Shown: piece after piece, positions 6,219 through 41,989 of the stretch
How positions within the stretch are numbered: position 1 is the first letter of the stretch
Layout of the letters: each line of letters starts with the position of its first letter
The notes under the pieces: model-generated
What the model saw: only the letters and a program-made list of their open reading frames with translations
Told to the model about the DNA's origin: nothing
Databases searched by the model: none
Origin: Microcystis aeruginosa Ma_SC_T_19800800_S464
Lineage (GTDB): Bacteria > Cyanobacteriota > Cyanobacteriia > Cyanobacteriales > Microcystaceae
Length of the DNA stretch: 64,000 bases
NCBI GenBank assembly: GCA_007095785.1
Contig: SFBL01000083.1
Span: 1 to 64,000 of the forward strand
Direction: 5' to 3'
Program-made: the position numbers and the translations under genes

Positions 6219-7091
6219 ATGACCTTTACTATCACTCAAAACCAAAATCAATATCTTACCTATTGTCTCAAGGATGAAGAAGCTGACGCTTATCTGGAAG
6301 TGGTTCCCGCTAGGGGAGGAATCATCACCCGTTGGCGAATTTGCGGAGAAGATATTTTATATCTGGACAGAGAAAGATTCAAAGATCCTAACCTCAGTGT
6401 GCGAGGAGGAGTCCCGATTTTATTCCCTATCTGCGGCAACTTACCCGATAATACCTATCAACACCAAGGCCGAAACTATAGCCTCAAACAACACGGATTT
6501 GCTCGTGATTTACCCTGGCAAGTGAGCAAACAAAGCACCGAAACTGCCGCTAGTTTAACCCTAGAATTAAACAGTAATGAAGCAACTCGTCAAGTCTATC
6601 CCTTTGATTTTCAATTAATCTTTACCTATCAACTGCAAGGAAACAGCCTCAAAATTCACCAAAAAGTTATTAATCTTTCACCCGAAAAAATGCCCTTTTC
6701 TATCGGGTTCCATCCCTATTTTCAAGTCACCGATAAAACCCGATTATCTTTTGATATTCCCTCCTCCCAATACCTCGACCAACGCAGGAAAACCCTCCAT
6801 TCCTACTCCGGCAACTTTGACTTTAATCTCGAAGAAATTGATGCCGCTTTTCCGCAAATTACGCGCCATCAAAGTAGTTTTAGCGATTCCTATCATCAAC
6901 GTCAAATTGTTATCGGTTACGACGATCTCTATACAACTATAGTTTTTTGGACTCTGAAAGATAAAAATTATATCTGTCTCGAACCCTGGAGCGCCCCCCG
7001 CAACGCCCTCAACACAGGCGAACATTTGAACTACCTGGAACCCCAGAGTAGCCGTGAGGCGATCGTGGAAATGCGAGTCAATCAAATTTAA
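6219..7091 (+). CDS. Aldose 1-epimerase (galactose mutarotase-like) family protein
   Basis: A 290-residue protein of the galactose mutarotase-like fold. VPARGGIITRWRICGEDILYLDRERF and RGGVPILFPICGNLPDN in the N-terminal third, the His of KQHGFARDLPW near residue 90, PFSIGFHPYFQV near residue 170 and CLEPWSAPRNALNTGEH near the end are the sugar-binding and catalytic positions of the glucose-6-phosphate 1-epimerase/YeaD-like branch. It catalyses interconversion of alpha and beta anomers of a hexose or hexose phosphate; the exact sugar is not visible. The start codon directly follows a heptamer array, and no Shine-Dalgarno sequence can be seen. Confidence 0.85.
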   Translation: MTFTITQNQNQYLTYCLKDEEADAYLEVVPARGGIITRWRICGEDILYLDRERFKDPNLSVRGGVPILFPICGNLPDNTYQHQGRNYSLKQHGFARDLPWQVSKQSTETAASLTLELNSNEATRQVYPFDFQLIFTYQLQGNSLKIHQKVINLSPEKMPFSIGFHPYFQVTDKTRLSFDIPSSQYLDQRRKTLHSYSGNFDFNLEEIDAAFPQITRHQSSFSDSYHQRQIVIGYDDLYTTIVFWTLKDKNYICLEPWSAPRNALNTGEHLNYLEPQSSREAIVEMRVNQI

Positions 7092-38355: not shown

Positions 38356-38917
38356 GTGACAAGAGGAGGTAATACTAAATCCTGTTTAAAAGGTATAGGA
38401 GAGTGGTGTGTCTGGTGTGGGTTGTAGGTTGTGGGGTGTGGGGAAAAGGGAGCACCGGAGCTGCGGAGTGGGGAGCAGGGAGAAACAATTTATAATTTGA
38501 GAGTTAATCACACTATTAAAAACGGATTTGGTCTGAGAGAGCGTTTCTCATCAAGATGAAGTATGACGGCATTTGGCATCATCCCCAGACGACCAGCTAC
38601 TGTTCCAGCCTTCCCCAGTTCCAGCCTTCCCAAAAACCGGAGAATTCGTACCTGACAATTAAGATAACTGCTTCTCCTAGACTAAAAGAAATAGGTCCTA
38701 TTGGGGGAGATTCCGAGAAATTATGGAAGCAAGCTGCAATGAAAGCGAGATTCGCAGTATTTTACTATGGGATGGGGCTTTTCAAGGGGCAAAGTAATTC
38801 GCCCCAGGGTTTCCCTCATCAATGCTGACTTTGTATACAATTCTCAAAAACTATGTTATCATAAATATAGTGTCTTGATGACTTTTATGTACAAAGCGTA
38901 CAAATTCAGACTTAAGC

Positions 38918-40454
38918 GTGCGACTCGTTCCTACCAAAAGTCTAACAGACGTGGGTAGGGCAAGGTCAAGAACCTTGACAACTCAATAACCGTGATGGTG
39001 AAAGTCCATCCCTCCAGATGATGGAGTGACAGCATAACCCCTTCCTGTGAAGAATGGTCATCAAAATAGGAAAAGCGGTTAAACGGCAGTAATGATGAAT
39101 CTGACATCAAATCCTGTCTAGCATCTAACTATGTGTATGAATAAGAACTTCCGTCAGAAGTATCGTTACTGAAACCTAGCCTACACAGATTATTGGCTGG
39201 CAACAAAAATGTTAACAAGCTAACGTACTGGGAAAAGGTATAGTTCAACCAGAATCATCTACACAACTTCGGTACAGAGGAAGACACTAAAGTTAGGAAT
39301 ACGGTTGTTGGGAACGAAGTAACCCTTATGAATCTCTTAGATAGGTCGAAATCCAAGTAGTAACCAGCGCAAGACTCATATAGGGAAAGATTGTGTAAGA
39401 AGCTAAAGCCTATCTGTAGTAGATAAGGATATGCTGATGTACACACTGCTCAATGGAATGAATGGTCTTAAGTAGTAATGACAAAGTTATGAACACGGCA
39501 TTAAAACCGATGTATGAATGGAAGGACATCAACTGGCGAAAAGCCGAAAGATGTGTCTTTAAGTTACAAAAAAGAATATTCAAAGCCAGTCAACGGGGTG
39601 ATGTCAAATTAGTCCACAAATTACCAAGGCTAATCCTAAAAAGCTGGTACGCCAAACTGATAGCCGTCAGACGGGTGGGCCAAGGCAATCAAGGCAAGAA
39701 AACCGCAGGAGTTGATGGGATAAAATCCCTAACACCCAAACAAAGAATGGCACTTGCTAAGAATATAAGACTTGGCAATAAATCAAAGCCAACCCCACAG
39801 GTTGTCTTAATCAAAAGACTAAATCCAATCATAAGAGGGGTGGAGTAATTACTATTCATCAGTAGTAAGCTCAAAAACTTTCACAGATTGTGATTACTAT
39901 TTCTTTGAAAAACTCAAAAGATGGGGATACAGACGACACCCAATGAAAAACCGAACTTGGATAATGCGTAAATATTGGCATACTGAGGGAAAAGATAATT
40001 GGGTATTCAGCACAAGAGAAGGTAAAAACTTCTCCAAACTAGCAAGACACCTAGATACAAAAGTCGTAAGATACGTCAAGGTGAGAGGGAATAAAAGTCC
40101 CTAGTATGGGGATTTAATATATTGGAGTAGTCGTATGAGTAAACACCCAGAAATCCCACCAGAAAAAGCTGTTTTACTCAAAAGACAGCAAGGACGCTGT
40201 GCATATTGTGGATTACATTTCCAAGATGGAGACATACTCGAAACCGACCACATTATTCCCAAATCTCAAGGGGGTAAAAACAATCGAGATAATAAGCAGT
40301 TACTCCATCGACATTGCCACGATTCTAAAACTGCATTAGATAAAACTGGTACTCATGACAAAGAGCCATTGGAGAGAGGAGCGGTGTGAGGTGAAAGTCT
40401 CACGCACCGTTTTGAAGCCGAGCCAGGATGGTGACATATCTGGCTTAGGGCAAC
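38918..40454 (+). ncRNA. Group II intron (about 1537 nt) inserted in tnpB
   Basis: The 5' end is GTGCGACTCG, the classical group IIB start. It is followed by domain I-like sequence (CAAGGTCAAGAACCTTGAC, ATAACCGTGATGGTGAAAGT). A maturase remnant lies in domain IV. Domain V is at 40379-40413: GAGCGGTGTGAGGTGAAAGT then CTCACGCACCG, with the AGC catalytic triad. Domain VI follows (AAGCCGAGCCAGG pairing near CCTAAGCC-type sequence) and the 3' end is CAAC at 40454, a normal AY end. Excision leaves tnpB exactly in frame, which fixes both ends. Confidence 0.88.
39489..40389 (+). pseudogene. Group II intron maturase (reverse transcriptase) with the RT core deleted
   Basis: The first part (39489-39830) is the RT N-terminal domain: MYEWKDINWRKAERCVFKLQ, FKASQRGDVKLVHKL, VRRVGQGNQGKKTAGVDGIK. 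It passes straight from NKSKPTP into VVLIKRLNPIIRG, the start of the maturase X domain, so some 300 residues of fingers and palm, including the catalytic Asp-Asp, are gone. A four-G run at 39837-39840 shifts the frame; one base fewer restores WSNYYSSVVSSKTF. A TAG at 40102 interrupts the next part. The end (40135-40389) is an HNH nuclease domain (RCAYCGLHFQDGDILETDHI with CHDSKTALD). At least three independent lesions make it a pseudogene. Confidence 0.88.
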
Positions 40455-41309
40455 CCAATACCGAGCAAGAAATAGCCTTAGCTAAAAGCTTTCGCTTTTG
40501 TCGTTGGTTTTGGAATTATTCATTGAATTTATGCCAAGAAACCTATCAAACCACAGGAAAAGGACTGACACGAAACTATATTCAGGGACTATTGCCTAGT
40601 CTCAACAAAGAATATGAGTGGTTGACAGATGCTTATTCCCAGTGTTTACAGGTTGTTGCTTTGAACTTATCGCCAGCTTATCAAAACTTCTTTGAGAAAC
40701 GAGCTAGATTGCCGAGATTCAAATCCAAACATGGTAAACAATCAATTAGCTATCTGGCTAACGTCAAGTTTGAGGGGGATTATCTAAAACTTCCTAAAAT
40801 TGGCTCGGTCTATTGTGTTCATCATCGGGAATTTGCAGGAACAATTAAAACTGTTACTATCTCAAAAAACCCAGACGGTAAATACTACGCTTCTGTTTTA
40901 GTTGACCCTTCGGCTCCGCTCAGGGTCAACGTCGAGGGAAGTCGAGACGTTGATGAAGGATTAGATCCCCTTGAGACATCAAAGGATGGAAAAGCGATAG
41001 GAATTGATTTAGGATTAACTCATTTTTGTATTACCAGCAATGGCAGTAAATATGATAATCCTAGACATTTAGCCAAACATCAACGTAATCTAAAAAGGAA
41101 ACAACAGAGGCTATCCTGTAAAAAGAAGGGAAGTAACAACCGTCAAAAAGCTAGAGGTAAAGTAGCTAAAGTTCACTCTAAAATCTCAAGATGTCGTGAG
41201 GATTTTCTCCACAAGCTATCCCGTAAGATAGTTAACGAAAACCAAGTTATTGCGGTAGAAAATCTGAATGTCAAAGGCATGGTACGCAATCATAATTTAG
41301 CTAAGGCTA

Positions 41310-41428
41310 AGTAGGTAGGTGGAATTAAATATAAGATGAACGTAGGTTGGGTTGAAGCATGAAACCCAACGCCCGCATGGGTTACGAAGTGCGCTAACCC
41401 ATCCTACAAATAATTGTGCCTCCCCACT
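41310..41428. mobile_element. 119-bp MITE inserted in tnpB at a TA target
   Basis: The terminal inverted repeats are AGTAGGTAGG on the left and AGTGGGGAGG (reverse complement of the right end). The element is flanked by TA on both sides (41308-41309 and 41429-41430). Deleting it with one TA gives the intact TnpB frame. It contains the inverted block GTTGGGTTGAAGCATGAAAC with CCAAC. A partial copy lies at 6056-6148 in opposite orientation. TA duplication points to mobilisation by an IS630/Tc1-type transposase, not encoded here. Confidence 0.85.
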
Positions 41429-41663
41429 TATTAGTGATTATGGTTGGGGGATGTTTTGTATAATGCTTAAATACAAGGCAGAATGGCAAGGAAAAACCTG
41501 TAGGGAAGTTGATAGGTTTTTCCCTAGTTCTAAAACTTGTCCTGTCTGTCTGAATCAAGTGGGTAGTTTGTCCCTTAATATTAGAATATGGACTTGTGTA
41601 TATTGTCAGACAACTCATGACCGGGACATCAAGGCGGCGATAAATATCAAAAACGAGGCCTGA

Positions 41664-41794
41664 CGGATATTGTCGTTAGGAAAAGCGCGATACTGCCTAG
41701 GTCGGGGATATAAGACCAAAAACTGGGCGTAAGTCCGTCTTGAGGCAATCCCGCATGAAATAGGAAGCTCTCAACTCGGTTGAGAGTAGTTCAC
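41664..41794 (+). ncRNA. Predicted omega (right-end) RNA region of the TnpB element
   Basis: In TnpB elements the guide RNA overlaps the 3' end of tnpB and ends at the right end, with the guide taken from flanking DNA. Here 41664-41794 holds several short stems (TAAGACC/GGGCGTAAGTCC, GTCTTGAGGC/GCCTAGGTC-like) and the final hairpin CTCTCAACTCGGTTGAGAG before GTTCAC. The guide would begin at 41795 with CAGTGGAATTGGGAAC. The role is inferred from the family; the exact RNA ends are not visible. Confidence 0.5.
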
Positions 41795-41989
41795 CAGTGG
41801 AATTGGGAACTATAGAGATGAAACCCGAAAGGGTGAATCAAGTCCTTGTTTAGGGGGAAAACCCCTCGTAAATTTCAGATTGCGTTGGAGGCAAAAATGG
41901 GAGCAATTTCGGAGCATCGGGTCAACGGGAACTATTATCGGGCATCTTTTGCCATTGTTGTCCTTGGCAGCCTAGCTAGGTAGGGAGTT

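Follow-up and report, generated by a model that had tools for sequence, protein, structure and literature searches.

A group II intron interrupts a tnpB gene of the cyanobacterium Microcystis aeruginosa Ma_SC_T_19800800_S464, within the 64,000-nucleotide stretch of contig SFBL01000083.1 (positions 1 to 64,000) that is analysed here and is called the window throughout. Based on comparison with related introns, it is quite probable that a lineage of group IIB introns homes into tnpB genes of the IS200/IS605 type and that the intron in the window is a decayed member of it. The hosts of this lineage are probably cyanobacteria, Microcystis and its kin. The intron in the window and its three closest known relatives (loci L196, L245 and L181) are all inserted after the first base of a proline codon (C/CC) at the homologous codon of tnpB. 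Because the three relatives occupy this same codon in different tnpB genes, the lineage appears to seek out tnpB. The subclass label IIB is provisional, resting on general class features and on the kinship of the intron-encoded protein (IEP) of L245 with the maturase of structure 6me0, which we take to be that of Thermosynechococcus elongatus; the two align over residues 18-582 with an E-value of 1e-111.

As the DNA stands, the tnpB gene in the window is not one open reading frame (ORF), being broken by two insertions. Exon 1 (38887-38917; this and all following features of the window lie on the forward strand) encodes MYKAYKFRLK and the first base of a proline codon, and is identical at 31/31 positions to the intronless copies L197, L198, L200 and L208. 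Exon 2 (40455-41309) carries HTH_OrfB_IS605 and OrfB_IS605 (PF01385) with RuvC-I and RuvC-II, and part 3 (41431-41663) carries a Cas12f1-like TNB zinc finger (PF07282, E 1.9e-22) with RuvC-III. The preliminary description of this DNA had proposed that removal of a group II intron and of a miniature inverted-repeat transposable element (MITE) restores a complete TnpB frame. Joining the three pieces indeed gives 1119 nt, or 373 codons including the stop, open throughout, and the 372-aa product aligns to residues 3-372 of ISDra2 TnpB (8bf8) with an E-value of 2.5e-57. The OrfB_IS605 and TNB domains were recognised on the separate pieces, the RuvC D-E-D residues in the alignment of the joined protein. 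Its acidic RuvC positions, which are presumed to be catalytic, and its zinc-finger cysteines lie at residues aligned with 8bf8. The guided_TnpB family of NCBIfam is recognised in both pieces 2 and 3, and the models NF040570 and NF038281 match.

Uninterrupted homologues run through both joints. In a search of 148 genomes of the order, 62 including the window's own gave a tnpB match at E ≤ 1e-120, and all 29 loci fetched from it (L037-L065) align across both joints without a gap. All 12 genomes in the genus-wide search have a match at E ≤ 1e-60, and among the 10 closest same-genus loci the eight that cover joint 1 are without exception intronless there. Seven distant tnpB genes of the window's own genome were also aligned. 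Five of them reach joint 1 without a gap and two start later, and in one of the seven (L013) a single residue is gapped close to joint 2.

The intron itself is 1537 nt long (38918-40454). Its ends, GTGCGAC and ..GGCTTAGGGCAAC, align with those of related group II introns and have the expected GTGYG at the 5' side and AY at the 3' side, which bears out the boundaries given in the preliminary description. Domains 5 and 6 (D5 and D6; 40376-40448) were assigned by Rfam match and folding. The scores of D5 are 46 bits for RF00029 (cut-off 40) and 55.5 for RF04357 (cut-off 53), the folding z-score of D5/D6 is -4.0, and the D6 hairpin forms. No group I intron family was found at the gathering threshold in the window.

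The preliminary description did not report the broken IEP gene, the misfit between intron and exon described below, or the relatives at the same tnpB codon. The whole broken IEP spans 39462-40389; it has lost 834 nt, shifted its frame and acquired a stop. Its N-terminal part (39462-39848; RVT_N, PF13655, E 1.1e-33) is fused in frame across the deletion to a piece of the maturase domain X, after which the frame shifts. Domain X is found as an open stretch with a GIIM match in another frame (39835-40101) that ends with TAG, and it is followed by the HNH endonuclease part (40105-40389; PF01844, E 2.4e-15). The loss of 834 nt, in frame and comprising the core of the reverse transcriptase (RT), was deduced from alignment offsets against the full-length L245. 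The intact RT/maturase present in L245 is absent from the intron in the window, and the IEP of the window is dead. Searches of the window's own genome with the intron DNA, RVT_N and GIIM return a single match apiece, always at this intron, and no other RVT_N or GIIM domain is found in the draft assembly, which is 98% complete. Three further D5-like places were detected in this genome, two above the cut-off at contig starts and one below it, so that a second intron family with an unassembled body may be present. Two copies of another group II intron (L111 and L112; G000:C133 and C189) are cut by contig starts, with their bodies outside these contigs.

The relatives were reached by different routes. 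When genome contigs were scanned with the HNH piece, 48 related loci emerged, among them L181 of the unicellular cyanobacterium SU3. This locus holds a 534-nt intron without an ORF, its first 387 nt 87% identical to the intron in the window, with exons reading ..EYKVY before it and PKQYQIDAINEAIRTTQ.. after it, the start of another tnpB. A search with the L181 intron in 386 genomes of the phylum hit five at E ≤ 1e-12, of which the window's genome and G169 are close matches and the other three hold distant relatives. The intron of L196 (G169) is 95-97% identical to that of the window over 910 and 560 nt. Its RT part is open and carries YADD, and its exon 1 (MEKAY, a stop, then FRFY before the intron) is identical at 29/31 positions to exon 1 of the intronless tnpB L014. 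Locus L245 was located through a tnpB match in genome G494 that starts exactly at residue 10. Here an intron of 2371 nt, to two parts of which the window intron is 93.7% and 94.3% identical, encodes a 586-aa IEP between KAFKYRIY and PTSEQSV... The IEP scores 340 bits with TIGR04416 (cut-off 300) and includes HNH. Since the genome is assembled as one contig, L245 is not an assembly artefact.

The four introns are 86-97% identical to one another, and their host genes differ: the window TnpB is only 38-41% identical to the L014 type, to which the host of L196 belongs, and 57% identical to the host of L245. In a FastTree phylogeny of 60 introns with motif-recognised 5' ends, the four form one clade with support 1.0. 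Only one of the other 56 lies in a tnpB (L249), at a site 5 nt further on, and the difference between four of four and 1/56 gives a Fisher P of 1e-5. With L181 and L196 only, both found by intron sequence, the comparison against the 56 gives P 0.002. The L249 intron (L249:1826-4220, G144) is a more distant group II intron in a tnpB of MFVLEYKV type, inserted between NPK and PYQI, with its IEP split over two frames.

The exon-binding sites EBS1 and EBS2 were located by alignment position and complementarity. The EBS1 word GATAGA pairs with the exon word TCTATC at 6/6 positions in L245 and L181; in L196 it pairs with the exon at 5/6, one GU pair counted. The EBS2 pairing is 4/5 in L245, 5/5 in L181 and 4/5 in L196, and in the window EBS2 (CTGAA, 39169-39173) pairs 5/5 with TTCAG of exon 1. 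The EBS words of the clade are complementary to codons of K-(F/Y)-R-(I/L/V)-Y-P. Of all possible 6-letter EBS1 words, about 1% would fit at least one of the nine alleles observed at the site at 6/6 positions, GU pairs counted.

The EBS1 of the window (GGTATA, 39237-39242) pairs at only 3/6 positions with the present intron-binding site IBS1 (TTAAGC), misfitting at -2, -4 and -5. The same word pairs 6/6 with TATACC of the intronless same-genus tnpB L199, where the EBS2 target pairs 5/5. The first 545 nt hold only eight substitutions specific to the window, and two of them are the positions at which its EBS1 differs from that of L245 and L196 (P 0.003). At joint 1 the eight same-genus copies read CTTAAGC, as the window does, in six cases, ATATACC in L199 and ATAAAAC in L209. 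The motif in the window protein is RLKP, not RLYP, likewise in 6/8 same-genus copies. Lys10 at the joint was considered as damage after the insertion and rejected: with CTTAAGC also present in 6/8 intronless same-genus copies, decay of IBS1 after insertion is not supported, and the remaining anomaly at joint 1 is an EBS1 that does not suit the allele now found there. The second base 3' of the intron is as in L199 and L209, unlike the CTTAAGC copies. Together these sequence data suggest an L199-like allele as the source of the intron in the window, or as the target to which it was tuned, and a subsequent replacement of exon 1.

Several observations weigh against a lineage that homes into tnpB. 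With EBS1 at 3/6, retrohoming into exactly the exon now present in the window is unexplained, and this case would require that exon 1 was exchanged afterwards or that the intron arrived in some other way. Discovery bias affects two of the four cases, the window and L245 having been found through tnpB. The contig of L196 ends inside the intron, leaving the 3' exon outside, and its exon 1 has TAG at codon 6; the L181 tnpB, read by eye, stops after about 35 codons; the L245 exon has ATA at the expected ATG, and its tnpB contains a second insertion. In seven more distant introns EBS1 at fixed columns pairs at 1-5 of 6 positions. This low fit is explained in part by a loop that is one base longer in some distant introns, and L096 and L098 reach 6/6 one column on. 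The other introns were checked for tnpB within limits: a tblastn search of the flanks missed L181, L196 and L245, since exon 1 is only about 31 nt long, and covered only 32 3' flanks; it returned one weak unrelated match (L071, E 0.013).

When 64 5' flanks, among them duplicates and some false ends, were scanned for the motif, the four loci were picked out, as was L155, which is not tnpB. Partial tnpB matches at L246, L247 and L248 are without such an intron. Among plasmids, 27 records matched the window intron, none covering 80% of it, and the L181 intron had no match in plasmids or in phages. Viral contigs gave 0 matches to the 5' end of the intron; four of them hold IEP relatives, and one 5' end read among these was not recognised as tnpB.

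Considering the common site, the clade and the pairing together, we propose that a mobile group IIB intron with an RT/maturase/HNH protein would home into cyanobacterial IS200/IS605-type tnpB genes. It would insert after the first base of the proline codon of the N-terminal motif R-(I/L)-(Y/K)-P or its counterpart, EBS2 pairing with the codons of Lys-(Phe/Tyr)-Arg and EBS1 with those of (Ile/Leu/Val)-Tyr-Pro. Because this motif is conserved, such an intron could move between otherwise divergent tnpB genes. Splicing of the complete copy L245 would put its tnpB exons back together. The member in the window has decayed: the larger part of its RT domain is gone, what remains of the IEP is broken, EBS1 is unfit for the exon, and splicing has probably been lost. 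A TA-duplicating MITE entered the same tnpB separately and truncates it. We put forward more tentatively that the lineage has specialised on TnpB nuclease genes, with EBS1 retuned to different codings of one motif (GATAGA for ..TCTATC, GGTATA for ..TATACC) while spreading across tnpB subfamilies. One RNA-guided element might in this way parasitise another, and it may put TnpB under splicing control.

The preliminary description had suggested that a group II intron in this gene could keep TnpB silent unless spliced. As a statement of anatomy this holds, translation without splicing giving a product of 23 aa. A live switch, in which the intron in the window is still removed with a maturase from elsewhere and so controls TnpB, appears unlikely. 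The final 147 nt of the intron, D5 and D6 included, share 99% identity with L245 and fold well, EBS2 fits the exon completely, and cyanobacterial introns without an ORF are described as splicing via trans-acting proteins in the parts of PMC4649490 and PMC2882425 considered here. An unassembled maturase is conceivable as well, given the other group II introns cut by the starts of C133 and C189. Against this stand the dead IEP, the single RVT_N and GIIM matches in the assembly, the EBS1/IBS1 pairing at 3/6, and a 2-nt deletion in an apparent D1 helix (assigned by eye) that L245, L196 and L181 lack. Furthermore, the spliced product would still end in the MITE after 296 aa, at TAG 41312-41314, without RuvC-III and the zinc finger; that the MITE stop truncates the spliced product had been foreseen in the preliminary description. 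For the mobile intron RmInt1, PMC3123198 reports that excision became undetectable when the three IBS1 positions -7 to -5 were altered and fell to about 13% when -4 to -2 were. Because of the 23-aa and 296-aa products, and because EBS1 misfits where the RmInt1 changes cut excision, the tnpB in the window is most likely dead and its intron a fossil.

It is very unlikely that the common site reflects unspecific insertion, as of mobile DNA that often lands in high-copy transposon genes. The tnpB genes are abundant in the genus, with 27 matches in G494 and 31 in G496, and related introns meet tnpB at other places too, namely in L249 and at L179:5001-5815 of a Tolypothrix brevis metagenome-assembled genome, where a 3' group II intron remnant directly adjoins an internal part of another tnpB. 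Against such chance landing stand four of four insertions at one codon and in one phase, with EBS complementarity in three. Least probable of all is a single old insertion in an ancestral tnpB, inherited without homing during tnpB divergence: it would give the same codon in 4/4 cases, but the genus introns are 94-97% identical while their host proteins are 38-57% identical, a mismatch of depth, two of the four hosts (L197 type and L014 type) have close copies that lack the intron, and that codon is uninterrupted in L249, which belongs to the same family as L181's host.

The proposed homing lineage would combine features of known systems. RmInt1 of Sinorhizobium meliloti, a mobile group II intron with site specificity, naturally resides in a transposase gene, that of the insertion sequence (IS) ISRm2011-2 (PMC4238363, PMC3123198); in the portion of PMC4238363 drawn on here, splicing is needed to restore the IS gene and poor splicing is argued to restrain the IS. 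The window lineage would likewise have its home in an IS gene that needs splicing to be restored. RmInt1 differs in being described as a class D or IIB3 intron whose IEP has no endonuclease, in contrast to the IEP with HNH of the window and L245; moreover, the proposed target of the window lineage lies in the codons for a motif that divergent tnpB genes have in common. The TeI3/TeI4 introns of Thermosynechococcus elongatus, as presented in the part of PMC2882425 used here, are cyanobacterial group IIB introns with ORF-deleted copies and families defined by EBS and hence by target, which is also the pattern seen here. That same part mentions few insertions within genes, names no tnpB site and does not contain the word 'transposase', and the deletion in the window takes the RT core and keeps HNH. 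The lineage thus appears to join IS-gene homing of the RmInt1 kind and EBS families of the T. elongatus kind with another kind of target, tnpB.

IStrons also combine a ribozyme intron with a tnpB-bearing element. In these, going by the passages of PMC4227781 at hand, a group I intron is joined to an IS605/IS607 element, whereas here a group II intron lies within tnpB. The joined window protein resembles ISDra2 TnpB over its whole length, yet the gene differs from ISDra2 and from cyanobacterial IS200/IS605 tnpB in being split by an intron and a MITE and in coding for RLKP instead of RLYP. Among the titles and abstract openings of the open-access papers listed in literature searches, none announces a group II intron homing into tnpB; such a report may still exist in print. 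Should the proposal hold, a retroelement guided by RNA finds its address in a conserved protein motif of a nuclease that is itself RNA-guided. L245, as the candidate full-length donor, is the member in which to study homing, splicing and the effect on TnpB.

The host element is a tnpB-only element of IS200/IS605 type with the two insertions, extending from about 38769, the left end being approximate, to 41794, with TTCAC (41790-41794) as its right end. The terminal sequence ..GAGAGTAGTTCAC is common to the seven same-genus copies that reach it, and the flanks beyond differ. In TnpB elements a guide-RNA scaffold is expected at the right end, and the region 41664-41794, conserved in these seven copies, is its putative place, as judged from TnpB biology. 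At the same-genus locus L185 (G095), the flank alignment breaks off at 38768 and picks up at 41795; the gap is filled by about 440 nt of different sequence, so that L185 is no clean empty site. None of the same-genus loci compared is a true empty site, as they differ in more than the element. Relaxed selection on the window tnpB was not shown: its unique codons include 8 nonsynonymous and 9 synonymous changes, compared to totals of 23 and 55 for seven copies taken together (P 0.25). The window TnpB departs at five columns that are constant across the other 36 proteins, against 0-3 such departures for each of these.

The MITE is 119 nt long (41310-41428), with terminal inverted repeats (TIRs) AGTAGGTAGG and AGTGGGGAGG and a TA duplication at 41308-41309 and 41429-41430. 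As claimed earlier, its excision with one TA fits the tnpB frame, and its entry is an event separate from the intron insertion. It has the TIRs, target duplication and copy number of a MITE: at least 41 matches, the window's included, are found in its own genome (40 of 109 candidates scored), and TA also stands on both sides at 8/9 other copies examined. It may be likened, by description only, to cyanobacterial MITEs such as Nezha, which are short, have TIRs and occur in many copies; the MITE in the window has 119 nt and a TA duplication. The tnpB of L245 (G494) contains its second insertion, about 230 nt, in the C-terminal part (reverse complement of about 6550-6785), which parallels the MITE of the window. 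A full copy 83.7% identical to the MITE (window 41308-41430) is present in Microcystis phage LMM01 (18149-18270), with parts in other Microcystis phages. Seven phage records match in total, six named Microcystis phages and one a cyanophage. A further short repeat of about 120 nt, seen at L196:1698-1898 and similar places, has from at least 38 to at least 54 matches per genome in 12 genomes of the genus. At L095 (G091:C67) there is a tandem pair of near-identical group II introns, the 3' end of one being directly followed by the 5' end of the next.

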